NCBI GenBank assembly: GCA_030538705.1
Contig: JAUNTL010000006.1
Span: 1 to 32,296, forward strand
Direction: 5' to 3'
Source of the DNA: Paracoccus sp. (in: a-proteobacteria)
Lineage (GTDB): Bacteria > Pseudomonadota > Alphaproteobacteria > Rhodobacterales > Rhodobacteraceae
Length of the DNA stretch: 32,296 bases
The position numbers and the translations under genes are program-made. Positions 156 to 30,244 of this stretch are shown piece after piece (the stretch's first letter is position 1; each line of letters opens with the position of its first letter). The notes beneath the pieces were generated by a model, which was given only the letters and a program-made list of their open reading frames with translations, was not told where the DNA came from and made no database searches.

Positions 156-581
156 ATGTCGTTTCCGAAAAAGGGCAAGTCCTTTCCAAACGAAAACGGG
201 TACGCTGAGGACGGCCAGGATTTGGCCGACAACTGGTTCACAGATGGAATCGCATCAGCCTTGAAGCGATCTCTCGGAAACAGTCGGGCGGGGGCAAAAG
301 TCGTCGCCTCTTGGACCGGTGCAAATGAAAAGACGGTGAAAAACTTGTTCGCCGGCAGATATGGTCCCAGCGGAGAGCATCTGGTCGCCTTGGCACGGCA
401 TTCAGATGAGGTGCTGGGAATGTTCCTCGCGATGGCCGGACGGCAGGGATTAATGGTGAGTTTGAAGCTCGCTGCCGCGGAACAGGCAATCGAGGAACTC
501 CTCACGGCAGTCCGCCGGCTGCCGACCGGAGATCATATCAATCCATCGCATGACGAGACGGACTTTACGGCCCGCAAGTAA
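156..581 (+). CDS. Small HTH-like hypothetical protein
   Basis: A 141-residue protein with a good ribosome site (GAGGGAGG about 8 bases upstream). The central part (residues 30-75) reads like a helix-turn-helix core: ALKRSLGNSRAGAKVVASWT followed by GANEKTVKNLFAGRYGPSG and a hydrophobic helix. This suggests DNA binding of the sort seen in small regulators carried by phages and integrative elements. A second helical segment (residues 95-122) may mediate dimerisation, and the C-terminus is polar. It lies next to a decayed transposition gene, which fits an accessory origin. GC content looks lower than in the genes downstream. No exact family name is assigned; the regulatory role is inference. 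Confidence 0.7.
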   Translation: MSFPKKGKSFPNENGYAEDGQDLADNWFTDGIASALKRSLGNSRAGAKVVASWTGANEKTVKNLFAGRYGPSGEHLVALARHSDEVLGMFLAMAGRQGLMVSLKLAAAEQAIEELLTAVRRLPTGDHINPSHDETDFTARK

Positions 582-800: not shown

Positions 801-880
801 TTCCATACCGATTGTTGATTCCAGTGATATTTGACCTTTTGGGTCGATATTTGTCCGTTGCGGCAGGCTGGCTGACCTTC
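801..880 (+). repeat. Repeat copy A with hairpin (pairs with 6165-6245)
   Basis: About 80 bases that align in the same orientation with 6165-6245. Shared blocks are CCATRCCGATTGT, CCTTTTGGG, CGATAT and CTGACC. A hairpin at 831-846 has arms TTGACC and GGTCGA around TTTTG. In the other copy the inner arm bases change to GGCC/GGCC, so pairing is kept. It lies just upstream of the tniB relic and could be part of a transposon end or its regulatory region. The repeat is seen in the sequence; its nature is inference. Confidence 0.6.
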
Positions 881-887
881 ACGCCGT

Positions 888-1151
888 TGCTATGGCGGAG
901 ATCGCGCACCGTTGCTTTCGGCCCTGACCGTGCCGTCACCAGCAACCCTCAAATCCGTCGGCCGAGCCATTTTGGAAGCGATCAGATACCCGCTCAAACG
1001 CGAGCGCAGGGCCGATGCGATCTGAGAATTGGTTCGCGGCTTCCTGAAAGAACGGCAGGTGCTTTTTCTGCATCTGGAAGAAGCTCAGGACATCGCGCGC
1101 CACCAGACCCCGAAAGAAATGCAGGCGGTCATCAACACCCTGAAAACCATG
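888..1151 (+). pseudogene. tniB: tniB-like transposition ATPase relic
   Basis: Translating in the frame of base 888 gives a TniB/AAA-ATPase fragment: LTVPSPATLKSVGRAILEAI, then YPLKRERRADAI, an in-frame TGA at 1023-1025, ELVRGFLKERQVLFLHLEEA, QDIARHQTPKEMQ and AVINTLKTMM. LFLH(L/I)(D/E)EAQD is the Walker B region of TniB-family NTP-binding proteins of Tn5053/Tn402/Tn7-like transposons. The internal stop sits where a Trp codon is expected (AIWE). The N-terminal Walker A part and everything after the LKTMM segment are missing. At about 1152 the sequence switches abruptly to a dnaE2-like tail. No intact TniA or TniQ is in the window. It is a dead fragment of a cut-and-paste or replicative transposon. 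Confidence 0.75.
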
Positions 1152-1226
1152 ATGCACCCCCGCTGATCAAGCCGAGCGCCTGTTCCCCGGCCGGCATTTT
1201 TATTGATGGACGGGGCCGCGTCAGCG
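1152..1226 (+). pseudogene. dnaE2 3'-end relic fused to tniB relic
   Basis: Reading from 1152 gives M-H-P-R, then one extra T at 1164, then DQAERLFPGRHFY and a TGA at 1204-1206. The intact dnaE2 in this window ends MHPREQAKRLFPSRDFH. The base-level match includes the shared run AGCGCCTGTTCCCC. Weaker similarity continues about 20 bases past the stop, matching the sequence after the intact dnaE2 stop. This is a diverged second copy of the dnaE2 terminus carrying a frameshift. It starts exactly where tniB homology ends, so a deletion or insertion junction lies near 1152. Confidence 0.7.
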
Positions 1227-6821: not shown

Positions 6822-7094
6822 GCCCTCCCCATGAATGTCGGGATGAACCGAAAACGGCGCGGCAAGATCATGCGCATCATGGTTGTCTCCCGCGCATGCG
6901 GGGATGAACCAAGTCCATACGTCACTCCTGAGTTGATTATCACCTGTCCCCCGCACATGCAGGGATGAACCGACTAGCGTGATGATGATCCTCGGCCCCT
7001 ACCCCTGTTCCCCGCACCCGCAGGGATGAACCGCCGCGCCGGATGCGCCTGCGGTCCGGCGCGATCTGTTCCCCGCACGTGAACGCAATTGCGG
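6822..7094 (+). CRISPR. Orphan, decayed type I-E-like CRISPR array
   Basis: Five 29-bp repeat units start at 6822, 6883, 6944, 7005 and 7066, an exact 61-bp period (29-bp repeat plus 32-bp spacer). The best units read CTGTTCCCCGCAC, then CATGC or CCCGC, then AGGGATGAACCG, matching the I-E repeat form (palindrome CCCCGC..GCGGGG, end GATGAACCG). Unit 1 is degenerate in its 5' half, unit 2 has scattered changes, and unit 5 keeps only CTGTTCCCCGCAC before diverging. Spacers are 6851-6882, 6912-6943, 6973-7004 and 7034-7065. Repeats differ from each other by point changes without indels, as in slow decay. No cas gene is in the window, so activity would need Cas proteins from elsewhere. Confidence 0.88.
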
Positions 7095-7319: not shown

Positions 7320-7685
7320 ATGACCCTACCCTTTCCAAGACAGCCGGATGGCAAGCCCCATGCCTGGGGTCTGACAGGCGACGCACCCAGCGAAATCTGG
7401 GAACGCTTCTCGCCCGCCTATGAGGCGCAGGCCGAAGCATTGTGGAACGAATTCAGCCGTATGGGCCTGATCCCGGCGCTGGAATGGGCCGGCTCGCAGG
7501 ATGGCGAGGCCGTGATCGGCCGCGATGATGCGGGCGAAATCGTCATGCTGTTCCATCTGGAAATGCCCGGCGAGGCACAGGCGCTGCATCAGGCGATCAC
7601 CGAGAACCGGCTTGCGGCGTTCATCCGCTCGGCCATCGCGCAGGCAGAACACGAGGCCGCCGCATATCGTGATCCGGCAGACTGA
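7320..7685 (+). CDS. Hypothetical protein, 121 aa
   Basis: Not recognised. The start at 7320 is chosen because MTLPFPRQPDGKPHAWGLTG gives a protein-like N-terminus and GAAGAAACGGAG precedes it; in-frame upstream codons read like non-coding DNA. The protein is acidic and probably soluble, with no signal peptide or membrane segment. Aromatic and acidic blocks occur (EIWERFSPAYEAQAEALW; GEIVMLFHLEMPGEAQALHQ) and the C-terminus is helical and Ala/Glu-rich. It stands alone between the CRISPR relic and the mutasome operon. A hairpin follows it. Third-position GC bias supports coding. Confidence 0.7.
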   Translation: MTLPFPRQPDGKPHAWGLTGDAPSEIWERFSPAYEAQAEALWNEFSRMGLIPALEWAGSQDGEAVIGRDDAGEIVMLFHLEMPGEAQALHQAITENRLAAFIRSAIAQAEHEAAAYRDPAD

Positions 7686-7899
7686 CCGCCCCGGCACGAT
7701 CACGTGACCCGCACGAGGTCTGGCACTGCCAGACCCCGCACCACCACATCACCAGCTTACGCTTGACCGCAGGATGCGGGAACGCGCGGCACATCCGCGT
7801 GGGCCGTTCCCGATGATGATGGCAGCGGGATGTGCCGGGCAGGCCCGCTGTGCCCGTCAATATGAAAAGGCCAAACCGGGCGCGGACCGCCCGACACTG
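7686..7899. other. Non-coding gap downstream of the 121-aa gene
   Basis: Contains the hairpin at 7717-7735 and otherwise nothing I can support. It joins the inverted dnaE2-tail repeat (7900-7997), making 592 bases without a gene before imuA. Confidence 0.5.
7717..7735. terminator. Perfect inverted repeat after the 121-aa gene
   Basis: GGTCTGG and CCAGACC with CACTG between, 32 bases past the stop at 7685. It lacks a T-run. It could be a terminator or a protein-binding palindrome (GGTCTGGCA-C-TGCCAGACC). Confidence 0.4.
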
Positions 7900-7997
7900 T
7901 CCGGCTGGCCCGTGGGATCTGCCCGATGTGACCGCATGACGGCCTGTCGCTTAGTGAAAGCCTGTCGTTCCGTGAAAATCGCGGCCGGGGAACAGCT
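7900..7997 (-). repeat. Inverted copy of the dnaE2 3' end and its downstream bases
   Basis: On the minus strand this region reads CTGTTCCCCGGCCGCGATTT, TCAC, an 18-base tandem duplication, then a match to the bases after the intact dnaE2 stop (CCGTCATGC, CACATC, GGCA). With the duplication removed I count 49 of 58 identical bases against 13569-13634. Weaker similarity continues to about 7900. It lies inverted relative to the copy at the operon's far end, so imuA-imuB-dnaE2 sits between inverted repeats. Confidence 0.7.
7942..7977. repeat. Tandem 18-bp duplication within the inverted repeat
   Basis: Units 7942-7959 and 7960-7977 share GCCTGTCG and GTGAAA and differ at three central positions. 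Comparison with the dnaE2 terminus shows that only one unit is ancestral; the other is a later duplication. Confidence 0.7.
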
Positions 7998-8242
7998 GCC
8001 CCGTCGCGGATCACCGGGCCGGTCCGCAAATCTTGCCTGCCTGCCGCCGCCGGCATCCGGTGACGGCAGGGCCGGCCCGGACCCTGCCTGCGGCCAGAGG
8101 AACGACCGGGATCGGGGCGGCCGGTGGCACCGCACGACCGGCCGGCCGGCGGTTGTGCCTGCTCATGCATCACAATCCCGACCGGCGCATCAACGCCCGG
8201 CCCACCGTCCATTGCGATTCTCCACAGGCCGGGGCGGTGTGA

Positions 8243-8271
8243 TTGGCACTTTGCGTCCGGGCCTCTATCTT
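8243..8271 (+). promoter_or_regulatory. Putative sigma-70 promoter of the imuA operon
   Basis: TTGGCA (8243-8248) and TATCTT (8266-8271) are separated by 17 bases. A start 7 bases beyond the -10 falls on base 8278, the A of the imuA ATG, so the transcript would be leaderless. I see no clear alphaproteobacterial SOS box (GTTC-N7-GTTC) in the 200 bases upstream. Confidence 0.5.
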
Positions 8272-8277
8272 CGGGGC

Positions 8278-8856
8278 ATGCATGCGCCAGACATCACCGC
8301 CTATCCCCTTATGCCGGCCCGCGTCCACGAGGCTTGTGGCCCGGCCGCATTCAGCTTTGCGACGATCGCCGCCGCGCAGATGGGGACCGGGGTGCTGTGG
8401 GTGCGCGGGCGGTGGTTGAACGGGCAGATCAATCCGCGCGGGTTTGACGGCCTCGATCCGGGGCAGTTGATTCTCGCCCAGACCAGCAGCCAGACCGACA
8501 CTCTGGCCGTGGCCGAGGAGGCGCTGCGCGACGGCGCCCTGCCATTGGTGGTGGCAGAGATCAGCGCGCCGCTGTCACTGACTGCGGGCCGGCGGCTGCA
8601 ACTGGCGGCGGCGGCCGGCGGCACGACCGGGTTGTGCCTGATCCCCGAAGGCATGGGCAGCAATGCCGCCGAAACACGCTGGCACTGCGCCCCGGTGTTC
8701 GATCTGCGGGACTCGACTCTGCAATGCTGGACGCTTATCAAGAACAAATCAGGAACAATTGGGCGCTGGTATGTTCGATGGGACGCAAAGGCGCGTCATG
8801 TGCATGTGGTTTCCCAGACTGGCCAGCGACCGGGCGATGAGGGTGCGGCCGGTTGA
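8278..8856 (+). CDS. imuA: ImuA, RecA-like mutasome accessory protein
   Basis: ImuA is a RecA/SulA-like component of the damage-inducible ImuA-ImuB-DnaE2 translesion mutasome. The 192-residue protein starts MHAPDITAYP at the first in-frame ATG after a good promoter; the frame is open further up, but that sequence includes a repeat relic and no ribosome site. Family features include HEACGPAAFSFATIAAAQ, VLWVRGRWLNGQINPRGFDG, LILAQTSSQTDTLAVAEEAL (the RecA-like core) and LSLTAGRRLQLAAAAGGTTG. It ends in VVSQTGQRPGDEGAAG. It overlaps imuB by 86 bases, so the two are tightly coupled. It is at the short end of the family (about 190-260). Confidence 0.85.
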   Translation: MHAPDITAYPLMPARVHEACGPAAFSFATIAAAQMGTGVLWVRGRWLNGQINPRGFDGLDPGQLILAQTSSQTDTLAVAEEALRDGALPLVVAEISAPLSLTAGRRLQLAAAAGGTTGLCLIPEGMGSNAAETRWHCAPVFDLRDSTLQCWTLIKNKSGTIGRWYVRWDAKARHVHVVSQTGQRPGDEGAAG

Positions 8857-10225
8857 GGGGCCATTCGCGCTGACGCTGACACAGGCAAATGCCAACCGCA
8901 TCCACGACCTGAATGCGGCGGCCGAGGATACGGGTCTTTATCGCGGCATGTCACTTTCGGATGCGCGGGCCTTTTGCCCCGATCTGATCAGCCGCCCGGC
9001 CGATCCGCGCGGTGATGCGCGGTTTCTGGACGGGTTGCGCCGCTGGGCCGTGCGCTGGTGCCCGTGGGTCGGCCGCGAGGGTGATGACGGGCTGGTGCTG
9101 GACATAACCGGCTCGGCCCATCTGTTCGGCGGCGAATCGGCGATGGCCGCGACGATCCGCGACCGGCTGACACGGGCCGGACTGTCGGTCAGGCTGGGGT
9201 TAGGGGATACGCGCGGCGCGGCCTGGGCACGGGCCCATTACGGCGAGACCGCCGCGCTGGACGAGCTGCCTGTGGCGGCACTGCGGCTGGACGGGCAACA
9301 GGTGACCTCTCTGCAACGGTTGGGCCTGCGGACGGTCGGGCAGCTTGCGCAGACAGCGCGCGCGCCGCTGGCCCGGCGTTTCGGGCCGGGGCTGCTGATG
9401 CGGCTGGATCAGGCATTCGGCCACCAGCCCGAACAGATCAGCCCCGCGCCCGAGCCGCCCCATTACGGGGTCCGGCTGACCCTGCCCGAGCCTGTCGGGC
9501 TGCTGGCCGACGTCATGGCCGCGACCGCGCGGCTGCTGGAACGGCTGTGCGGCAAGCTGGCTGCGCAGGAAACGGGGGCGCGGGTGCTGTGCCTGACGCT
9601 GCACCGCGTGGACAGTCAGGCGCAGCATGTCGAGCTGCGTCTTGCCCGGCCCATGCGCGACCCGGCCCGCATCCTGCCGCTGTTTCAGCGCGGTGTGGCA
9701 CAGGTCGATGCGGGGTTCGGGATCGACCAGATCCGGCTTGAGGCGGTGCAGGCCGAGCCTCTGCCGGCCGAACAGATCACCCCTGCCGGCCGCCGTGATC
9801 CGGGGCGTCTGGACGATCTTGTCACGCGGATCGGGACACGGATCGGGCTGGATCACGTGCAGCGCTTTCTGCCCACCGAAAGCCATATCCCGGAGCGCAG
9901 CTTTCTCATCGCGCCCGCCGCCGGCGCGCGCCCGAAAGGCAACTGGTCCGACCCGCGCCCGCGCCCGCTGCTGCTGTTTGCACCCGAACCGGTCGCCGCC
10001 ACCGGTTCCCGCCCGCCCGCAAGGTTTCGCTGGCGCCGCATGGCTCTGACCACCGGCCGCGCCACCGGTCCCGAGCGGATTTCCCCCGAATGGTGGCTGG
10101 AGGATGAAAGCTGGCGGCACGGCATGCGCGATTACTGGCGCGTCGAGACGCGGCAGGGCCGGCGCCTGTGGATGTTTCACACACCACAGAACCCCGGCTG
10201 GTTCGTGCAGGGGGAATTTGCATGA
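8771..10225 (+). CDS. imuB: ImuB, Y-family polymerase-like mutasome hub
   Basis: ImuB resembles Y-family polymerases but acts as a scaffold linking DnaE2, ImuA and the beta clamp. The 484-residue protein starts MFDGTQRRVMCMWFPRLASD; the MWFPRLASD motif is the family N-terminus. An alternative ATG lies 9 codons further in. LVLDITGSAHLFGGE near residue 112, LSVRLGLGDTRGAAWARAHY and LPVAALRLDGQQVTSLQRLG (HhH region) follow the Y-family order. The palm sequence reads DITGSAHLFGGE rather than the DEAYLD-type motif of active Y polymerases, as expected for ImuB. It ends in WFVQGEFA and overlaps dnaE2 by 4 bases (ATGA). Confidence 0.92.
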   Translation: MFDGTQRRVMCMWFPRLASDRAMRVRPVEGPFALTLTQANANRIHDLNAAAEDTGLYRGMSLSDARAFCPDLISRPADPRGDARFLDGLRRWAVRWCPWVGREGDDGLVLDITGSAHLFGGESAMAATIRDRLTRAGLSVRLGLGDTRGAAWARAHYGETAALDELPVAALRLDGQQVTSLQRLGLRTVGQLAQTARAPLARRFGPGLLMRLDQAFGHQPEQISPAPEPPHYGVRLTLPEPVGLLADVMAATARLLERLCGKLAAQETGARVLCLTLHRVDSQAQHVELRLARPMRDPARILPLFQRGVAQVDAGFGIDQIRLEAVQAEPLPAEQITPAGRRDPGRLDDLVTRIGTRIGLDHVQRFLPTESHIPERSFLIAPAAGARPKGNWSDPRPRPLLLFAPEPVAATGSRPPARFRWRRMALTTGRATGPERISPEWWLEDESWRHGMRDYWRVETRQGRRLWMFHTPQNPGWFVQGEFA

Positions 10226-13200
10226 CCCCGCAGGGGGGCGCTGCCCCCGCCGCGCAAGGCGCGGCCCCCCCGGGATATTTGGGGACAGAAGACGCCGCGG
10301 GCGCGGCTTATGCCGAGCTTTGCGTGACCTCGAATTTCACCTTTCTGACCGGGGCCTCGCATCCCGAAGAGCTGGTCACACGGGCCGCCGAGCTGGGTCT
10401 GGACGCCATCGCCATCACCGACCGCAATTCCCTGGCCGGGGTGGTGCGGGCCTGGTCGGCGCTGAATATCATCAGAGATCAAACAGATGAATCCCCCGGC
10501 ATCCGTTCGCAGCAGCTCAAGGATCCATCTTCGCGGCAGGGCGGCGGCGGGGCTGCCCTGACCCGCCCGAAAGGGGGACGCCTGCCGCGGCTGATTACCG
10601 GCGCGCGGCTGGTGTTGCGTGACAGCCCCGTGGAATGGGTCGCGCTGCCCACCGATCTGGCCGCCTATCAGCGGCTGACCCGGCTGTTGACGCGGGGCAA
10701 GCGGCGGGCGGAGAAGGGCGGCTGTCATCTGGATATGGCGGATCTGCTGGCAGGCTGCGCGGGCATGATCCTGATCGCGCTGCCCGCTGATCTGCAAGAT
10801 GCGGCCCCGAGCATCACGCAGATGCGGCAACGCTGGCCGGGCCATGTTTTTGTGGGTGCGGCGCCGCGCTATGACGGCTCGGATCAGGCATATCTGGCTG
10901 GCTGCGCCCGGCTGGCGCAGCAGACCGCCGCGCCGATGGTCGCGGTGGGTAATGTGCTGATGCACCGCGCAAGCCGCCGACAACTGGCCGATGTGCTGAC
11001 CTGTCTGCGGACCGGCTGCACCATTGACCGGATCGGCACAGGCGCGCTGCCCAATGCCGAAAGGCGGCTGAAAGGTGCCGGGGACATGGCGCGGCTGTTT
11101 CAAGATCACCCCGCCGCGCTGAGGCGCAGCGTCGAGATCGCGGGGCGATGCGCCTTTGATCTGGGTGAGTTGCGATATCAGTATCCCGACGAGGTTGCCG
11201 ATGGCGAGCCGCCCATGGCGCGCCTGACCCGGCTGGCACATGAGGGGCTGGCGCGGCGCTATCCTTCGGGCGCGACCGACAAGGCCCGAACGCTGATGGT
11301 CAAGGAACTGGCCGTGGTCGGAGAGCTGGATTACGCGCCCTATTTCCTGACCGTGCATGACATTGTGGGCTTTGCCCGCAGTCAGGGGATCCTGTGTCAG
11401 GGGCGCGGCTCGGCGGCCAATTCGATCCTGTGCTATCTGCTGGGCATCACCGATGTCGCCCCCGAGATGATCGGCATGGTGTTCGAGCGGTTCATCTCGC
11501 GCCACCGGGGCGAGCCGCCCGATATCGACGTCGATTTCGAGCATGAGCGCCGCGAAGAGGTGATCCAGTGGATCTATGCCCGCTATGGCCGCGACCGCGC
11601 CGGGCTATGCGCGACCGTGATCCATTTCCGCGCCCGCGCCGCCATCCGCGAGGTCGGCAAGGCCATGGGCCTGTCGCAGGATGTCACCGCCGCGCTGTCG
11701 GGGCAGATCTGGGGCTATAGCGGCGATGGCCCGGACCCTGAGCGCATCCGCGAGCTGGGTCTGGACCCGCGTGACCGGCGGCTGTCCCAGACCCTGCGGC
11801 TGATCGGCGAGATCATCGGCTTTCCGCGCCATCTGTCGCAGCATGTCGGCGGGTTCGTCATCACCAAGGGCCGTCTGGACGAGCTGGCACCGATCGAGAA
11901 TGCCGCGATGGAGGATCGCACCATCATCGAATGGGACAAGGACGATATCGACGCGCTTGGCATTCTCAAGGTCGATGTGCTGGGGCTGGGGATGCTGACC
12001 TGCATCCGCAAGGCCTTTGATCTGCTGCATCATCACGAGGGGCAGGCGCTGAGCCTTGCCACCCTGCCGCCCGAGGACGGCGCGACCTATGCCATGTTGC
12101 AAAAGGCCGATGCGGTGGGGGTGTTTCAGGTCGAAAGCCGGGCGCAGATGAACTTTTTGCCGCGGATGAAGCCGCACGAATTCTATGATCTGGTGATCGA
12201 GGTCGCCATCGTCCGCCCCGGCCCGATTCAGGGCGGCATGGTCCAGCCCTATCTGCGCCGCCGTCAGGGGCTGGAAACGGCCCAGCCCTTTGGCCCTGCG
12301 CTGGAACAGGTGACGCGCCGCACATTGGGCGTGCCGCTGTTTCAGGAGCAGGCGTTGCAAATTGCCGAGGTCGGCGCGGGCTATACCGCGGAAGAGGCCG
12401 ACAAGCTGCGCCGATCCCTCGCCAGCTTTCGCCGCATGGGCACGATTGGCGAGCATCGCGACAAGTTCATCGCCGGCATGATGGCCAATGGCTACAGCGC
12501 CGACGTCTCGGCCCGCTGCTTTTCCCAGATCGAGGGCTTTGCCGATTACGGCTTTCCCGAAAGCCATGCGGCGGCATTCGCGCTGCTGGTCTATGCCTCG
12601 GCCTGGGTGAAGTGCCATCATCCGGCGATCTTTGCCTGCGCGCTGCTTAACAGCCAGCCGATGGGGTTTTACGCACCTGCGCAGATCGTGCGCGACGCCC
12701 GTGAACATGGCGTCGAGATCCGCCCGGTCTGTGTCAACGCCAGCGCATGGGACAATACGCTGGAGCGTCGCGGTGACGGCGCTCTGGCCCTGCGGCTGGG
12801 ATTGCGGCAGATCCGGGGCTTTCGGCAGGATGATGCCGGATGGATCGGCGCCGCGCGCGGCAACGGCTACCCGGACCCCCAGTCGGTCTGGCTGCGTGCG
12901 GGCGTGGCCCCGGCCGTGCTGGAACAGCTGGCCGAGGCCGACGGCTTTACCTCTATGGGGCTGTCGCGGCGCGATGCGCTGTGGCAGGTCCGCGCGATTC
13001 GCGCCCCGGCCACCCTGCCCCTGTTCAGCGACCCCATCGACGGCGAGGCCATTCATGAACCGGCGGTCTCATTGCCCGCCATGCATATGGGCGAAGAGGT
13101 CGTCGAGGATTATGTCGCCACCCGTCTGACCCTGCGCGCCCATCCGATGGAGCTGCTGCGCCCGTCAATACCCGGCCTGACCCGTCATGACACCCTGATC

Positions 13201-13602
13201 ACCGCGCCCTTGCGGGTGATGACCGTCTGCGGCCTCGTCATCACCCGCCAGCGTCCCGGCACGGCCTCGGGTGTGGTTTTCCTGACGCTTGAGGATGAAA
13301 CCGGGGTCGCGAATGTGGTGATCTGGCGCAAGGTCTTTGACCGATATCGCCGCGAGGTCATGGGCGGGCGGCTGCTGCGCGTCACGGGCATGCTGCAACG
13401 CGAAGGGATCGTCACCCATCTGATCGCCCGGACGATCGAAGATGTTTCACACCAGCTGTCCGGCCTTGGCCACCCGATGCAGGACGCCATCGGTCAGACG
13501 ACACCGCAAACCGACAGCGCCCCGCGCCAGCGCGCGCTGCCCCGCGGCATGCATCCGCGCGAACAGGCAAAGCGCCTGTTCCCCAGCCGCGACTTTCACT
13601 GA
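10222..13602 (+). CDS. dnaE2: DnaE2, error-prone DNA polymerase III alpha (ImuC)
   Basis: Error-prone C-family polymerase that performs mutagenic bypass with ImuA and ImuB. It has 1126 residues and starts at an ATG overlapping the imuB stop, with GGGGGA six bases upstream. Order: PHP domain (AELCVTSNFTFLTGASHPEE from about residue 30), polymerase core with PDIDVDFEHERREE (catalytic D436 and D438) and ILKVDVLGLGML (D585), fingers (FGYPESH-like YGFPESHAAAFALLVYASAW), then an OB domain (MTVCGLVITRQRPG; FLTLEDETGVANVVIW). It ends RLFPSRDFH, the DnaE2 signature end. Two oddities: the first 28 residues are encoded by a REP-like double hairpin, and about 36 extra residues (nt 10471-10578) interrupt the PHP region. 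Confidence 0.95.
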   Translation: MTPQGGAAPAAQGAAPPGYLGTEDAAGAAYAELCVTSNFTFLTGASHPEELVTRAAELGLDAIAITDRNSLAGVVRAWSALNIIRDQTDESPGIRSQQLKDPSSRQGGGGAALTRPKGGRLPRLITGARLVLRDSPVEWVALPTDLAAYQRLTRLLTRGKRRAEKGGCHLDMADLLAGCAGMILIALPADLQDAAPSITQMRQRWPGHVFVGAAPRYDGSDQAYLAGCARLAQQTAAPMVAVGNVLMHRASRRQLADVLTCLRTGCTIDRIGTGALPNAERRLKGAGDMARLFQDHPAALRRSVEIAGRCAFDLGELRYQYPDEVADGEPPMARLTRLAHEGLARRYPSGATDKARTLMVKELAVVGELDYAPYFLTVHDIVGFARSQGILCQGRGSAANSILCYLLGITDVAPEMIGMVFERFISRHRGEPPDIDVDFEHERREEVIQWIYARYGRDRAGLCATVIHFRARAAIREVGKAMGLSQDVTAALSGQIWGYSGDGPDPERIRELGLDPRDRRLSQTLRLIGEIIGFPRHLSQHVGGFVITKGRLDELAPIENAAMEDRTIIEWDKDDIDALGILKVDVLGLGMLTCIRKAFDLLHHHEGQALSLATLPPEDGATYAMLQKADAVGVFQVESRAQMNFLPRMKPHEFYDLVIEVAIVRPGPIQGGMVQPYLRRRQGLETAQPFGPALEQVTRRTLGVPLFQEQALQIAEVGAGYTAEEADKLRRSLASFRRMGTIGEHRDKFIAGMMANGYSADVSARCFSQIEGFADYGFPESHAAAFALLVYASAWVKCHHPAIFACALLNSQPMGFYAPAQIVRDAREHGVEIRPVCVNASAWDNTLERRGDGALALRLGLRQIRGFRQDDAGWIGAARGNGYPDPQSVWLRAGVAPAVLEQLAEADGFTSMGLSRRDALWQVRAIRAPATLPLFSDPIDGEAIHEPAVSLPAMHMGEEVVEDYVATRLTLRAHPMELLRPSIPGLTRHDTLITAPLRVMTVCGLVITRQRPGTASGVVFLTLEDETGVANVVIWRKVFDRYRREVMGGRLLRVTGMLQREGIVTHLIARTIEDVSHQLSGLGHPMQDAIGQTTPQTDSAPRQRALPRGMHPREQAKRLFPSRDFH
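10234..10280 (+). repeat. REP-like double hairpin inside the dnaE2 5' coding region
   Basis: Two adjacent perfect hairpins: GGGGGC-GCT-GCCCCC (10234-10248) and GCCGCGC-AAG-GCGCGGC (10249-10265). A C-run and CGGGATATTTGGGGACAGAA follow. This pattern (GGGGGC.CTGCCCCC, a second stem, CCGGGATATTT) resembles common intergenic repeats of Rhodobacteraceae. Here it lies within the first 20 codons of dnaE2 and is translated as QGGAAPAAQGAAPPGYLG. Confidence 0.65.
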
Positions 13603-13635
13603 GGGTCAGACCGTCATGCCGCCACATCCGGCATG
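13553..13635 (+). repeat. dnaE2-terminus repeat, reference copy
   Basis: The last 50 bases of dnaE2 and 33 bases after its stop. This segment has diverged copies at 1152-1226 (same orientation) and 7900-7997 (inverted). Confidence 0.65.
13615..13635 (+). terminator. Hairpin after dnaE2
   Basis: CATGCCG and CGGCATG enclose CCACATC, 13 bases after the stop. There is no T-run. The structure lies in the part of the repeat that is shared with 7900-7997, where the stem is partly lost. Confidence 0.5.
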
Positions 13636-13687
13636 TCCCGCAGACCGGCCGCGTCCTGCTGGCGTGACCCGCAGCCGATCCGGCTTC

Positions 13688-13723
13688 CATGCAGCAGCGT
13701 TTTCCATGCGGCAGCGCTGCATG
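13688..13723. repeat. Long-loop inverted repeat downstream of dnaE2
   Basis: CATGCAGC (13688-13695) and GCTGCATG (13716-13723) form an 8-bp stem with a 20-base loop. It could act as a second-stage terminator. The rest of the gap before kbl holds no gene. Confidence 0.35.
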
Positions 13724-13810
13724 ACCGGCCTGCCCTGATACGGCCTGCAACGGCGCCACCCATCCAGCGGACGACATCACCGCCCCTGTCTGGCGGGCGG
13801 GTATCGGCCT

Positions 13811-13860
13811 TTATATTCCATAATAACGGATTTTAATCCTCTATCTTGACATCTCTCCAT
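13811..13860 (+). promoter_or_regulatory. AT-rich kbl-tdh control region with palindrome
   Basis: A sharply AT-rich block in an otherwise GC-rich region, just ahead of kbl. It contains the palindrome GGATTTTAATCC (13828-13839) and a TTGACA (13846-13851), though no convincing -10 lies at the right spacing. The palindrome is a plausible operator for the Lrp/AsnC-type regulator encoded downstream; this is inference. Confidence 0.4.
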
Positions 13861-13896
13861 AACCGCGCGACCTTTTGTCCAACGCAGGAGGACACC

Positions 13897-15087
13897 ATGT
13901 CGCAGACCGGATTTCTCAGCCACATCACTTCGACCCTGCAAGAGATCGAGGCGGCCGGGCTTTTCAAGCGCGAGCGGCTGATTACGTCACCACAGGGGGC
14001 GCATATCACGGTCGGGGGGCGCGGGTTGATTAACCTGTGCGCGAACAACTATCTCGGGCTGGCGGATGATCCGCGCCTGATTGCGGCCGCGCAGCGGGCG
14101 CTGGACGGGCATGGTTTCGGCATGGCCTCGGTGCGCTTTATCTGCGGCACGCAGGATCTGCACCGCGCGCTGGAAAGCCGGATCGCCGCGTTTCTGGGGA
14201 TGGATGATTCGATCCTCTTTGCCGCCTGTTTCGACGCCAATGGCGGGCTGTTCGAACCGCTTCTGGGGCCGCAGGATGCGGTGATTTCGGACGCGCTCAA
14301 TCATGCCTCGATCATCGACGGCATCCGGCTGTGCAAGGCGCGGCGCTATCGCTATGCCAATTCCGACATGAACGATCTTGAGACACAGCTCAGGGCCGCG
14401 CGGGCGGATGGGGCGCGCTTTGTCATGATCGCGACGGATGGCGTCTTTTCGATGGATGGCTATCTGGCCAGGCTGCCCGAAATCTGTGCGCTGGCGGAAA
14501 AATACGATGCGCTGACCATGGTGGATGACTGTCATGCGACCGGTTTCATGGGGCCGCAGGGGCGCGGGACGCCGGCCCATCACGGGGTTCGCGTCGATCT
14601 CGTCACTGGCACGCTGGGCAAGGCGCTTGGCGGCGCGCTTGGCGGGTTCATCGCCGGGCCGCAGCCGGTCATCGACCTGCTGCGTCAGCGCGCGCGGCCC
14701 TATCTCTTCTCCAACGCATTGCCGCCCGCCATCGTCGCGGCCGGGCTGGCCGCCATTGATATCATCGAGGGGGCGGATGACCTGCGCGCACAGCTTTTCG
14801 ACAATGCCGCCTATTGGCGCGCGGGGCTGAGGGATGCCGGATTTGAGCTGCTGCCGGGCGGGCATCCGATCATCCCCGTCATGACCGGCGAGGCACGGCT
14901 GGCGCAGGATATGGCGGCCGCGCTTTATGCGCGCGGGGTCCATGTGTCGGGCTTTTTCTTTCCGGTCGTGCCGCAGGGGCAGGCGCGCATCCGCACCCAG
15001 ATGAACGCCCGGCTCAGCCGCGATGATCTGGACACCGCACTGGATGCGTTCCGCGTGGCGGGCCGTGAAACGGGGGTGATCGGATGA
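13897..15087 (+). CDS. kbl: Glycine C-acetyltransferase (2-amino-3-ketobutyrate CoA ligase)
   Basis: PLP enzyme that splits 2-amino-3-ketobutyrate with CoA into glycine and acetyl-CoA, the second step of threonine breakdown. The 396-residue protein starts [10 protein letters not shown] after a perfect AGGAGG (13886-13891); 17 in-frame upstream codons are rejected on that basis. Features: [18 protein letters not shown] (substrate loop), [19 protein letters not shown], the cofactor region [29 protein letters not shown] and the Schiff-base lysine in [10 protein letters not shown] (K242). [20 protein letters not shown] near the C-terminus is typical of the alpha-oxoamine synthase family. Length equals the E. 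coli enzyme (398). The stop overlaps tdh by 4 bases. Confidence 0.95.
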
Positions 15088-21336: not shown

Positions 21337-23856
21337 ATGACCAATGTTTTTGATCTCATGGACCCGGCCAGCGGGCTGTGGAAAAAGCCGGCCGGCGATG
21401 CATCGGCCAAACTTGCCGAGATCTTCGGGGCGACGCGCGACGAATACGAGGCCGTGACCCGGACCGGCAGCATTCTGTCAACGGTGGCGCACCGCCATCT
21501 GCGCCGGATCGCGGACAGCCACAGCGCCCGCGCCAGCCAGACCGCGCATGAGGCCGCGGCACTGGCCACGACCCTGCGCAGCGGGGCGACCCCGGCCGGG
21601 CTGGCCGCGCAATGGTCGGCCTATCTGAGCGATGCGGCCGAGCGCGCGGTGCTGACGGCCGATGTGCTGCGCAGGCGCGGCGACATCTTTCTGGATCACG
21701 AGGCCGCCGGCTGCCCGCCCGTGCTGGCCTATGATTACGAGGTGGTCATGGACGGGGCCGAGCTGCCTCATCCGTCGAATTACTTTCTGCTGCGCATCCT
21801 GCCGCCTGCGGGCGTCACCATCGACGACACGCGCCGGCCCTATATCATCATCGACCCGCGCGCCGGCCACGGCCCCGGCATCGGCGGGTTCAAGACCGAC
21901 AGTCAGGTCGGGGTCGCCATGCGCGAAGGTCACCCGGTCTATTTCGTGGCCTTTCGGCGCGCGCCTGAACCGGGGCAGTATCTGTCCTATGTCACGCGGA
22001 CCGAAGCGGCCTTTGTGCGCGAGGTCATGCGCCGCCATCCCGATGCCTCGAACCCGGTCATCATCGGCAATTGTCAGGGCGGATGGGCGACGCTGGTGCT
22101 GGCGGCATCGAACCCCGATCTGACCGGACCCATCGTCATCAACGGCGCGCCCGTCGCGCCATGGGCGGGGCGCGTGGGCGAAAATCCGATGCGCTATAAC
22201 GCCGGCGTTCTGGGTGGGACATGGGTCGCGATGCTGCTGTCCGACCTTGGTGACGGCATCTTTGACGGCGCGCATCTGGTCCAGAACTTTGAACTGCTTA
22301 ACCCCGGCCGCACGATGCTGCGCAAATATACCGATCTTTTCCGCGACCCCGAAACCGCCGCCGCGCGGTTTTTGGAATTTGAAACCTGGTGGGGCGGCTT
22401 TTTCCTGCTGAACGAGCCGGAAATCCGCTGGATCGTCGAACAGCTGTTCGTCGGCAACCGGCTGGTCAAGAACGAGGCCCGGATCGAGCCGGGCCGGCCG
22501 CTGGACCTGAAATCCATCCGCGCGCCGATCATCGCCTTTGCCAGCTTTGGCGATAATATCACGCCCCCTCAGCAGGCGCTGAACTGGATCGCGGAAACCT
22601 ATGCCGATGTGAACGAGATCCGCATCCGCGGCCAGCGGATCATCTATATGGTCCACGAACAGGTCGGCCATCTGGGCATCTTTGTTTCCAGCCAGATCGC
22701 CAATCGCGAACATAGTGAAATGGCCTCGACGATGAAAACGATCGAGGCGCTGTCACCCGGTCTCTATGAGATGAAGATCGAGGATGTGACCGAAGAGGAC
22801 GGGCGCAAACGCTTTACCGTCGGCTTTGCCGAGCGCCGCCTTGACGATATCCGCGCATTGGATGACGGCGTGGCTGATGAACAGCCCTTTGCCGCCGTCG
22901 CCCGCGCATCCGAGATGCAGGCCCAGACCTATGAGGCAATGCTGCGCCCGCTGATCCGGGGCGCCGTCACGCCCTCGATGGCCGCCGCCGGCCGGGCGCT
23001 GCATCCGCTGCGGCTGTCGCGTGCGGCGATATCGTCGGGAAATCCGGCGATGGGCGTGATCGCCTCGGCCGCCGAACGCACCCGCGCGAACCGGCGCAAG
23101 GCACCGCCGGACAACCCCTTCCTTGCCGCCGAGGCATTATGCGTCGCGGCGATGGAACAGGGGCTGGATCTGTGGCGCGACTGGCGCGACATGTGCCATG
23201 AGATGACATTCTATGGCCTGTGGGCGAACCCCTGGGCGCGGCGCTTCGGGCGCGGCCACGAGCTGCGCCGCACCCTCAAAAGCGCGGACGAGCTGCGCGC
23301 CCTGCCCGAGGTGTCCGAGGCATTGATGCGCATTGCTCAGGGCGGATTCGCCGAGGCCGTGATCCGCATGCTGATCCTGATGGCCGACAGCCGGGGCAAT
23401 GTGCGCCGCGACCGGCTGGAGCGTTCGGGCCGGGTGCTGACGATGGATGAACCCTTTGCCGGGCTGGGCGCGGAAAAGCGCGCGATGATCATTCACGAAC
23501 AGACCCTGATCGCCACCTATGAGCCAGAGGCCGCGATCGAGACCCTGCCCAGGCTGCTGAAAACCACGGCCGAGCGCGAAAGGGCCATGTCGGTCGTGCA
23601 ATATATCCCCGGCCGTCTGGACGAGATGTCGCCCGATACGCTGGCCCTTCTGGGCCGCTTCCGCGGCGTGCTGGGGCTGGGTCCGCTTGCCGGTGACGTG
23701 CTGGATGATCCGCTGTCAGGCCCGGATGCGCCGGCACCGGATGACGGCGCGGCGGGCGGCGGGGCGGGTAATGCGCCCGATGCCACGACGCCGCCGGACG
23801 GGTCCACCACCACCGCCCGGCCCCGCAGGCCCGCCCGCCGCGCCAAGGCCCGCTGA
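21337..23856 (+). CDS. DUF3141 protein, PHA-synthase-like alpha/beta hydrolase fold
   Basis: An 839-residue cytoplasmic protein of the DUF3141 family, whose function is not established. The central part (about 125-460) is an alpha/beta hydrolase core. [19 protein letters not shown] puts a Cys (C246) in the G-x-C-x-G-G box of PHA synthases, instead of the usual Ser. [14 protein letters not shown] supplies D406 and [11 protein letters not shown] supplies H445, completing a Cys-Asp-His triad. Helical regions flank it (residues 1-120 and 480-770). The last 55 residues are low-complexity: acidic and Pro/Ala/Gly-rich, then basic ([11 protein letters not shown]). It directly follows the FabI-like gene. 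An acyltransferase or polymerase role on acyl-CoA is inference. Confidence 0.88.
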
Positions 23857-27316: not shown

Positions 27317-30244
27317 ATGCTGCGTGCTGCAAGCTGTGTAACCTGCCTGATGCTGTGGACTGGCGCCGCCCTTGCCGACGGCGCCCTTGCGGCCGCGTTT
27401 GACAGCTGGCGCCAAAGACCCGCGCCCGAAACCGCAATCGGGGTCACCGCCGAGGTCATGCGTCTGTCCGCACTGCCCGACTGGCCCGCGATTGCCGGGC
27501 TGGGCGCGAACGAGGTCGCGGCGATGCTGCCGCTTTTACCACAGGATCAGGCGGCCGAGCTGATCTTGCTGACGGCGATGGCGCAGGGCTATGGCGGCGA
27601 CCGCGTGGCGCAGGATGCGATTGCCGCCGCCGCCGACGAATTTGCCCGCGCCCTGCCCGGACCCGCCGCCCGATCCCTGTCGGTCAACCTTGGCTATGGC
27701 TATCTTCAGACCGGCGCGCCTGATCGCGCCTTTGAGCGGCTTGACCAAGCCCGCCAACAGATCGAGGCCGCCGGCGACGCCGCGGCGCTGATCAATATCT
27801 GCATAATGGCAAGCGATACCTTTGACCGTTACGGCCACACCGCCGAGGCCGGCAGCTTCTATGCCGGTTGCGATGCCAGCCCGCTTTTGCGCCGCGCGCG
27901 GGCGCCCGGCACCGGCATCTTTCATCACAATCAGGCACAGTTTCTGGCCGGACAGGGCGAGGTTGAGCCCGCCATCTCGCGTCACCGGCTGGCACTGGAA
28001 TATCTGGATCAGGAGTTCGGCGACCCTTCGGTCGAGCTGGCCAATGCCTATGACGCGCTGGCAATGACGCTGCTGCACGCGGGCGAACTGGGGGCGGCGG
28101 ATACCACGGCCGGTCTGGCACAGACGCAGGCCGTTCAGGCCGCCGGAACGGATCACGCCGATTACTGGCGCATCGCCAATAATGCCGCCTCGATCAAGCG
28201 CGCGCTGCGGCTGCCCGCACATGCCTATGACCTGGATGCGGCCGCACTGGAATGGCGCCGCGCCAATCTGGGCGAGGATGCGGCGCTCAGCTATGCGTCA
28301 TGGCTGAACCTGTCGCTCGATCTGGCCGGGATGGGCGAATGGCAGGCGGCGGGCGAGAATTTTCTGGCGCTTTATGCCCGCCTTGCCGGGGGCGAGCCGA
28401 TCCCCTACAGCCGCGAGGTGCTGGAGGCATATCTGCATTACATCAAGGCCCGGCAGGATGCCGAAAAGGGTCTGCCGGCACGTCTGCCGCCCTTTAACCC
28501 GCTGATCCGTCAGGGCGCCCCGGCCGAGCTGTTCACCGGGATGACCGATCTGGCCGTTGATCAGCTGCTTGCCAGAGGCGAGACCGACGAGGCGCTGCGT
28601 CTTGCCGACTGGCTGCACGGGTTTCTCGGGCGCGAGATCGGCCCGCACCATCCCTTTACCTTTGAGGCCGCGCTGCTGGCGGCGCGCGCACAGGCGCCGC
28701 GATCAGCCGAAGCAGCATCGGCCGCACTGGCGGGGCTGGATATCGACGCATTCAACTGGACCCGCAGGCAGGCGCTCAGCGGCAGCTATGATGCGGCGCT
28801 GGCGGCGCGGGTTCTGGGCGATGATCTGCTGACGGAAATGGCCCGGCATGCGATTGCGACCCCCGCGTTCTCGGCACAGTTCGGCGATGCCATCCACCGC
28901 TGGAAAACGCTTGAAGATCCCTCGGACCGCATTCTTGACCGGGTTGCGCGACAGGCCGATGACCCCGGCCTGCGGCAGGCGGCGCGCGATTACGCCCTGG
29001 CCGCTGCCCGCCTGCGCGAGACAGCCCGCGCCGAGCCGGTATCCGAGGGCCTCGCCCGTCAGGACGAGGCGCTGCGCCATCAGCGCGCCGCGCTTAACCT
29101 GCGTCTTGCCGGCGCGGGGCTGGCGCAGGTGATGCCGCCGCTGGCCGCGCTGGATCAGTCCGCCCCGGCAGGTTTCACGGTCGCCGCGGGCGATGTGGTG
29201 ATCGACCTGATCCTTTTGCGCGAATGGGCGGGACACGACCGGTCGGGCACAGCGGACACGCTGGCGCTTTATGCGGCGGTTTACCGTGCCGATACCGCGC
29301 CGGTCATTCATCTGGTCAGCCGCATGAAAGATGCCCCCCAAAGGATGGCCGCTTTCCACGCGCAGCTGCACCGCGATCTTGGCCCCTGGCTGGCAGCCGA
29401 GGCCGGGGCGGAAAAGCGGCTGTTCATCGCCCCCGACGCCATGTTGTTCCAGTTCGACCTGCCCGGCCTGCGCGATGCCACCGGCGCAAGGCTGGGTGAA
29501 AGCCATGATGTCTATCTGCTGACCGACCGCGGTGCCTATGCACGCCACGACACGGAACCGGGGCTTGATCGGGGGGACAGGATCCTGCTGGCCGGGGCCG
29601 TTCAGACCTCGCCCGACGCCCCCGGATATCTGCCCGGCGCATTGCACGAGATCGAGACCATCGCCGCCCTGACCGCCACCGCCGGCGCCGAGGTAACCCG
29701 CCTGACCGGCACCGAGGCGACCGCATCACATGTCGCAAGCGGCGCCGAGGGCGCGGCCATCCTTCATCTGGCGACGCATGGGTTCTTTCACGCCGTTTCG
29801 GATCATCCCGCCAGCCTGATGAATGCCGGCCTCGTGCTGGCCGCCCCGGCAGACGGATCCGGCGCGTCGGGCGCCACCGATGGAATGGGTGGGGCGGACG
29901 GGATCGTCCATGCGCTTGAGCTGATGGAATGGAACCTCGGCGCGGCGCGGCTGGTGGTGCTGTCGGCCTGCGATACGGGTGTCGGGGCAACCACCCCGAT
30001 TGATGCCGTGCGTGGCCTGCCGCTGGCCCTGTCACGCGCCGGCGCACGCCGCTCGCTGGTGACGCTGGGACCGGTGCCCGACCACCAGACCGCGCGCATC
30101 ATGGAGCGGTTCTATACCCACCTGACCACCGGCCGGCAGAGCTATGCCGACGCCTTCAACGCCACCAGACGCGACATCTGGGCCGGCCGGATCGAGGGCG
30201 TGAACCCCGAGACGGGGGCCTATTTCGTGCTTTACAGCCATTGA
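27317..30244 (+). CDS. Secreted CHAT-domain protein with TPR-like repeats
   Basis: A 975-residue protein with an N-terminal signal peptide (residues 1-21, ending AALADG). It has a long Ala/Leu-rich helical-repeat region (about 40-560) that looks like tetratricopeptide-type helices, and a C-terminal CHAT domain (about 650-975). CHAT is a caspase-like cysteine peptidase domain: the dyad is visible as HLATHGFF (H821) and [11 protein letters not shown] (C885), both in the expected motifs. [20 protein letters not shown] and [12 protein letters not shown] complete the fold. Export to the periplasm or outside sets it apart from cytoplasmic CHAT effectors such as Csx29 or TPR-CHAT. The target is unknown. 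It is single, in its own transcription unit. Confidence 0.9.

Follow-up and report, generated by a model that had tools for sequence, protein, structure and literature searches.

Duplication of DNA in association with inversion has been reported in bacteria (as described in the part of PMC8963470 considered here). The gene end that concerns us is also well described: about 77% of DnaE2 sequences have the motif SRDF[H/R] at the C-terminus (according to the part of PMC3919608 considered here). In the open-licence literature, we found no papers on inverted dnaE2 ends. Among mobile elements, the closest comparison is with the Tn7-like transposons of Rhodobacterales plasmids. Two of the plasmid regions that we fetched (L219 and L220) encode a protein with a Mu transposase C-terminal domain and an ATP-binding protein, and L219 also has an annotated TnsA N-terminal domain and TniQ.

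We analyzed a 32,296-nt stretch of DNA from Paracoccus sp., which we will call the window. It contains imuA, imuB, and an intact dnaE2 on the same strand (Table 1). The window's DnaE2 has the SRDF[H/R] motif at its very C-terminus. Because DnaE2 ends in this conserved motif, the coding part of any copy of the gene's end (a "tail") is easy to spot. No LexA-type box with up to one mismatch was found upstream of imuA in the window; such boxes are present in 9 of the 26 relatives with an imuA match, and three of these are exact.

The window has other features as well. Three degenerate repeats at 6882-7045, spaced by 61 nt, match repeats on two other contigs of the same genome (C43 and C79) and are a decayed CRISPR array; from the repeat sequence, we take it to be type I-E-like. 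A protein of 839 amino acids (21337-23856) contains a DUF3141 domain, and another of 975 amino acids (27317-30244) has a CHAT domain at its C-terminus.

Table 1. Coordinates of the features discussed in the text (positions in the window)
Feature	Position	Strand	Details
Small ORF	156..581	+	Distantly related (27% identity, E = 1.3e-8) to an ORF on the far side of the TniQ end of the Tn7-like element in G018
tnsC (TniB-like) fragment of a Tn7-like transposon	876..1165	+	Internal stop; runs into the third copy
Third copy: remnant of the 3' end of another dnaE2	1152..1209	+	MHPR followed, after a one-base frame shift, by DQAERLFPGRHFY*
Decayed copy, in inverted orientation, of the dnaE2 3' end plus downstream DNA	7902..7995	-	Matches the dnaE2-end segment at 62 of 76 positions, insert excluded
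18-nt insert within the inverted copy	7961..7978	-	Old near-tandem duplication; 14/18 identical to the adjacent 18 nt
imuA	8278..8856	+	Start inferred
imuB ORF	8663..10225	+	IMS and IMS_C domains
dnaE2 ORF	10168..13602	+	Intact; ends in RLFPSRDFH*
dnaE2-end segment (taken as the source)	13576..13651	+	The final 27 nt of dnaE2 (stop at 13600-13602), followed by 49 non-coding nt

An inverted copy of the dnaE2 end

Upstream of imuA, in the opposite orientation, lies a second and decayed copy of the end of dnaE2 together with the DNA that follows it. If the 18-nt insert is excluded, 13576-13651 on the plus strand and 7995-7902 on the minus strand are identical at 62 of 76 positions, so that the two copies have diverged by about 18%. 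BLASTN of 13201-13900 (plus strand) against the reverse complement of 7501-8280 (a comparison of 700 x 780 nt) gave two collinear segments: 13576-13592 matched 7995-7979 at 16 of 17 positions, and 13593-13651 matched 7960-7902 at 46 of 59 positions (E = 8e-11 for a comparison of this size). An earlier note on this DNA had counted the inverted match at 49 of 58 positions and described an 18-bp tandem duplication in the left copy. Our recount (50/59 over 13576-13634) agrees, and the extra nucleotides (7978-7961) do resemble their neighbor.

The similarity is well above that of shuffled sequence, which the earlier note had proposed as a check: local alignment of the pair scored 37.4, and the maximum from 2,000 dinucleotide shuffles was 19.8. 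Even on its own, the non-coding piece (13603-13650) scored 24, as compared to a maximum of 18 from 20,000 mononucleotide shuffles, and its second-best place in the window scored 16 (in steps of 400 nt, on both strands). Outside of the pair's core, the similarity is not significant (p = 0.16-0.24 upstream and 0.11-0.18 downstream). The limits given here are therefore those of the core, and the true ends of the duplicated piece may lie elsewhere.

Where dnaE2 encodes LFPSRDFH*, the inverted copy translates to LFPGRDFHG, and a second FH* ending follows. The SRDF[H/R] motif (in the part of PMC3919608 considered here) accounts for the conserved coding end in all of the copies, but it leaves unexplained the non-coding DNA that 7902-7995 has in common with the dnaE2 end. 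As the earlier note argued, the similarity passes from coding into non-coding DNA, and for this copy, a duplication is needed rather than protein constraint.

Distribution of the pair

To describe how widespread the pair is, we used the assembly of the window's own genome (G000; 205 contigs, 3.4 Mb, about 87% complete) and a sample of 125 genomes from the genus, which comprises this genome and 124 others. We searched with a degenerate 26-nt pattern taken from the pair's non-coding core, allowing up to three mismatches (more decayed copies are missed), and found it at exactly two places in the own genome, 7920-7945 and 13608-13633. Among the 124 other genomes, there was one place with three mismatches (in G114) and none in the other 123, and the reversed pattern, as a control, was found at 0 places. 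Without mismatches, the pattern was found nowhere in the contig collection, which may omit the own genome. Local alignment to about 72 kb of other stretches of the own genome gave scores of up to 18.5, as compared to 39.9 for the pair. Outside of the window's copies, BLAST-type searches of the own genome gave only matches of about 14-24 nt. Since not even the partner copy of the pair was listed by these searches, they offer little control for equally decayed copies.

Across the 125 genomes, the relatives' matches extend at most 13 nt past the dnaE2 stop. Short, isolated matches to the non-coding stretches occur in other genomes; they span 20-63 nt, with E-values of 4.7e-5 or weaker. In the plasmid collection, the left flank has no match, and the right flank matches 16 records, all of them within the dnaE2 part or up to 7 nt beyond it. 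Since the inverted copy includes non-coding DNA that is unique to the window's dnaE2 among the searched genomes, it probably came from the same locus or from a very near relative.

We also compared imu operons. We fetched 40 stretches around dnaE2 from relatives, dropped five that lack the imu side, and compared the remaining 35. For each relative, we took the end of its own dnaE2 (57 coding nt and the stop, with the following 63 nt) as the query and searched both strands of the flanking DNA, up to 1.5 kb before imuA and 1.5 kb downstream. In none of the 35 operons is imuA preceded by a comparable inverted copy. The window scores 42.4 for the upstream inverted copy (the maximum of 100 shuffles was 19.0). 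The best relative (L107, from G096) scores 22.7, with a shuffle maximum of 18.0, for an inverted match upstream of imuA; this match is gapped and involves the DNA just after the stop, not the dnaE2 end itself. L106 (from G120) has the same dnaE2 end as L107 and scores only 11.6. Three others exceed their own shuffle maxima by at most 1.6: L117 with an upstream direct match, and both L116 and L105 with downstream inverted ones. The earlier note had asked if imu operons elsewhere are flanked by the same pair, and in these relatives they are not. With two places in the own genome (at up to three mismatches) and none in the 35 relatives, we can take the pair neither for a dispersed repeat nor for a bracket that imu operons have in general. 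The inverted pair is specific to the window's lineage.

The surroundings of the operon are also unusual. None of nine neighboring genes of the window, from the ubiX side and the kbl side, was found in the 40 relative stretches. Counting the own genome, o7314 is present in 14 of the 125 genomes and kbl in 28. In nine o7314 loci and ten kbl loci of relatives, o7314 was never found with kbl, and neither was found with imu genes. An HTH-cupin gene is on the upstream side of kbl in all ten of these kbl loci (in the same orientation in nine of them); the window's homolog lies 4.7 kb downstream. This displacement implies that the window's neighborhood has been rearranged.

Other dnaE2 tails in the window and the genus

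The earlier note also placed a third copy at 1152-1226. Its similarity to the dnaE2 end is indeed above chance (24.0, with a shuffle maximum of 17.7), but it does not belong with the other two. Its match to dnaE2 gives out about 3 nt after the stop codon, and it is 76% identical to the window's dnaE2 over 58 nt, as compared to 84% over 55 nt for the dnaE2 of G071 and 82% over 57 nt for that of G029. (Its identity to the dnaE2 of other species ranges from 76% to 83%.) The copy at 1152 is a separate scar: it is the remnant of another dnaE2, of which only the last codons are left, beside a tnsC fragment.

The adjacent tnsC fragment is a single frame that is split by a stop. A Tn7-like element in G018 encodes a TniB/TnsC protein to which its two pieces are identical at 50% and 54%. 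It also resembles the ATP-binding proteins of Tn7-like elements in Phaeobacter plasmids. Its reading frame enters M-H-P codons that are also in the dnaE2 end, so the join may have used this short stretch. Overall, 156-1209, near the contig end, holds the remains of a Tn7-like transposon beside a dnaE2 tail.

Across the 125 genomes, a degenerate pattern of the tail has 68 sites in 59 genomes, including the window's two (counted by eye); the reversed pattern has 0 sites. For 10 sites where the body of dnaE2 was doubtful, we fetched the surrounding DNA. Three of these sites have a full dnaE2 (G007, G100, and G084), and six have no dnaE2 beyond its last 16-20 codons (G112, G024, G030, G127, G090, and G018). 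At the remaining site (G069, contig C6, inferred to be the Paracoccus aminophilus plasmid NC_022050.1), there is a 104-codon C-terminal fragment of dnaE2 that is annotated as an OB-fold protein. Most of the other tail sites coincide with dnaE2 matches (by eye, among the matches listed; some are partial). Two sites in G104 and one in G027 lie in short partial matches.

Thus, seven relatives have orphan dnaE2 tails. Five of them have one stretch in common (L207-L211, from G112, G030, G024, G127, and G090) that is about 97-99% identical, so these may represent a single event. In this stretch, the last 88 nt of dnaE2 and the following DNA are 99.5-99.9% identical to the corresponding DNA at the intact dnaE2 of G091, and a broken phage terminase gene precedes the tail (identified in L207 and L208; the other three have this DNA in common with them). 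A control motif from the body of dnaE2 was found in 107 of the 125 genomes, a count from which the tails cannot be called over-represented.

In G018, TniB, TniQ, and a Mu transposase C-terminal domain are encoded near the orphan tail, together with a TnsA-like match that falls short of the Pfam cut-off. The tail forms the end of a broken ORF, which lies some 1.5 kb away from the TnsA-like one and presumably resembles SRAP/YedK proteins; a 52-amino-acid piece of this broken ORF had no match in Pfam. A search for the ends of this transposon gave no convincing terminal repeats.

The dnaE2 remnants in several genomes of the genus fit with repeated gain and loss of mutasome operons. More generally, small scars of rearrangement are easy to see where the end of a gene is strongly conserved.

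Origin of the inverted copy

We think it likely that 7902-7995 is an old, partial, inverted duplication that arose by rearrangement or template switching and is decaying, and we detected no function for it from folding, LexA-type boxes, or target-site duplication. A lineage-specific rearrangement, long ago, would have placed another copy of some 75 nt (the dnaE2 end and downstream DNA), inverted, upstream of imuA and 5.6 kb away. We infer that copying ran from the dnaE2 end. The likeliest routes would be an inversion with staggered breaks that duplicated one breakpoint (DNA duplication associated with inversion) or template switching during replication. Later decay of the copy would account for the divergence, the loss of the first stop, and the internal 18-nt duplication. 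The pair fits with a local rearrangement or inversion: the unit has copies in inverted orientation at both ends. The 35 relatives show no comparable second copy, but none of these has the window's neighborhood, so the operon as a whole may, or may not, have been moved or inverted as the earlier note suggested. In the non-coding DNA after the stop, 37 of 49 positions match, which leaves room for constraint. The weak inverted match in L107 also counts against our reading, though L106 has none.

Alternatively, the inverted copy could be the last trace of an entire second dnaE2 or imu operon, in the opposite orientation and mostly deleted, which arose by a palindromic duplication or was acquired. 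Several relatives do have more than one dnaE2 or fragment, and the orphan tails show that such relics persist. But ahead of the last 27 coding nucleotides, the similarity is not significant. Also, one would not expect a dnaE2 that was acquired separately to come with the same non-coding DNA downstream, and the relatives that we found do not have it. We consider a second operon to be rather unlikely.

In the genus, the DNA next to orphan tails includes a phage terminase gene, a tnsC fragment, and another broken ORF, and one tail lies ahead of its own operon in inverted orientation. This raises the idea that the dnaE2 3' end is a recurrent point of breakage and joining, perhaps a target or hotspot for mobile elements as mutasome cassettes are gained, lost, and moved, but we view this as quite improbable. 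Another explanation is that the copies are scars of attachment sites, with an integrase or Tn7-like element that targets the dnaE2 3' end. The Tn7-like genes in G018, the tnsC fragment in the window, and the terminase stretch in five genomes would suit such an element. Against it, the genes beside the tails differ, and so do the tail lengths (88 nt mapped in the five-genome group, 57 recognizable in G018, and 55-58 in the window). The tail pattern is absent from three Tn7-like regions of plasmids, and no transposon end was located in G018. Also, the search for orphans used the tail pattern only. Attachment-site scars therefore seem very unlikely.

It is similarly hard to believe that the pair consists of functional ends, whether as terminal inverted repeats that bound a mobile unit or as a paired 5' and 3' element of the operon's mRNA. 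The copies do bracket the operon in inverted orientation, and a plus-strand leader would be complementary to the dnaE2 3' end. But no target-site duplication was found (the longest shared outer word is 7 nt, at unequal distances from the copies), and none of the 35 relative operons has the same ends. The predicted folding of both copies is no better than that of shuffled sequence (z = -0.1 to 0.7), and a hairpin predicted on the dnaE2 side (CATGCCG/CGGCATG) is absent from the predicted fold of the other copy. The divergence of the copies also argues against functional ends. A mobile mutasome cassette with its own ends is probably a false lead that can now be set aside. Finally, the earlier note suggested that the dnaE2 stop overlaps a dispersed repeat, and three places in the window do resemble each other, but the core pattern occurs only twice in the 3.4 Mb assembly, which refutes this for copies within three mismatches of the 26-nt core (in an assembly that is about 87% complete) and makes a dispersed repeat extremely improbable overall.

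How do these scars compare to known systems? The relic at 876-1165 resembles part of the ATP-binding, TnsC/TniB-like protein of the plasmid transposons (L219 and L220). Unlike those transposons, the window has fragments only, and the three plasmid regions that we fetched lack the dnaE2 tail pattern. For the inverted pair, partial duplication by rearrangement is our preferred reading, and the comparison is with DNA duplication associated with inversion (as far as the part of PMC8963470 considered here describes it). The pair differs from that system in that the ancestral arrangement was not found and the segment is far shorter than a gene. It is alike in that a short segment is present twice, in inverted orientation, and flanks a segment that may have been flipped.
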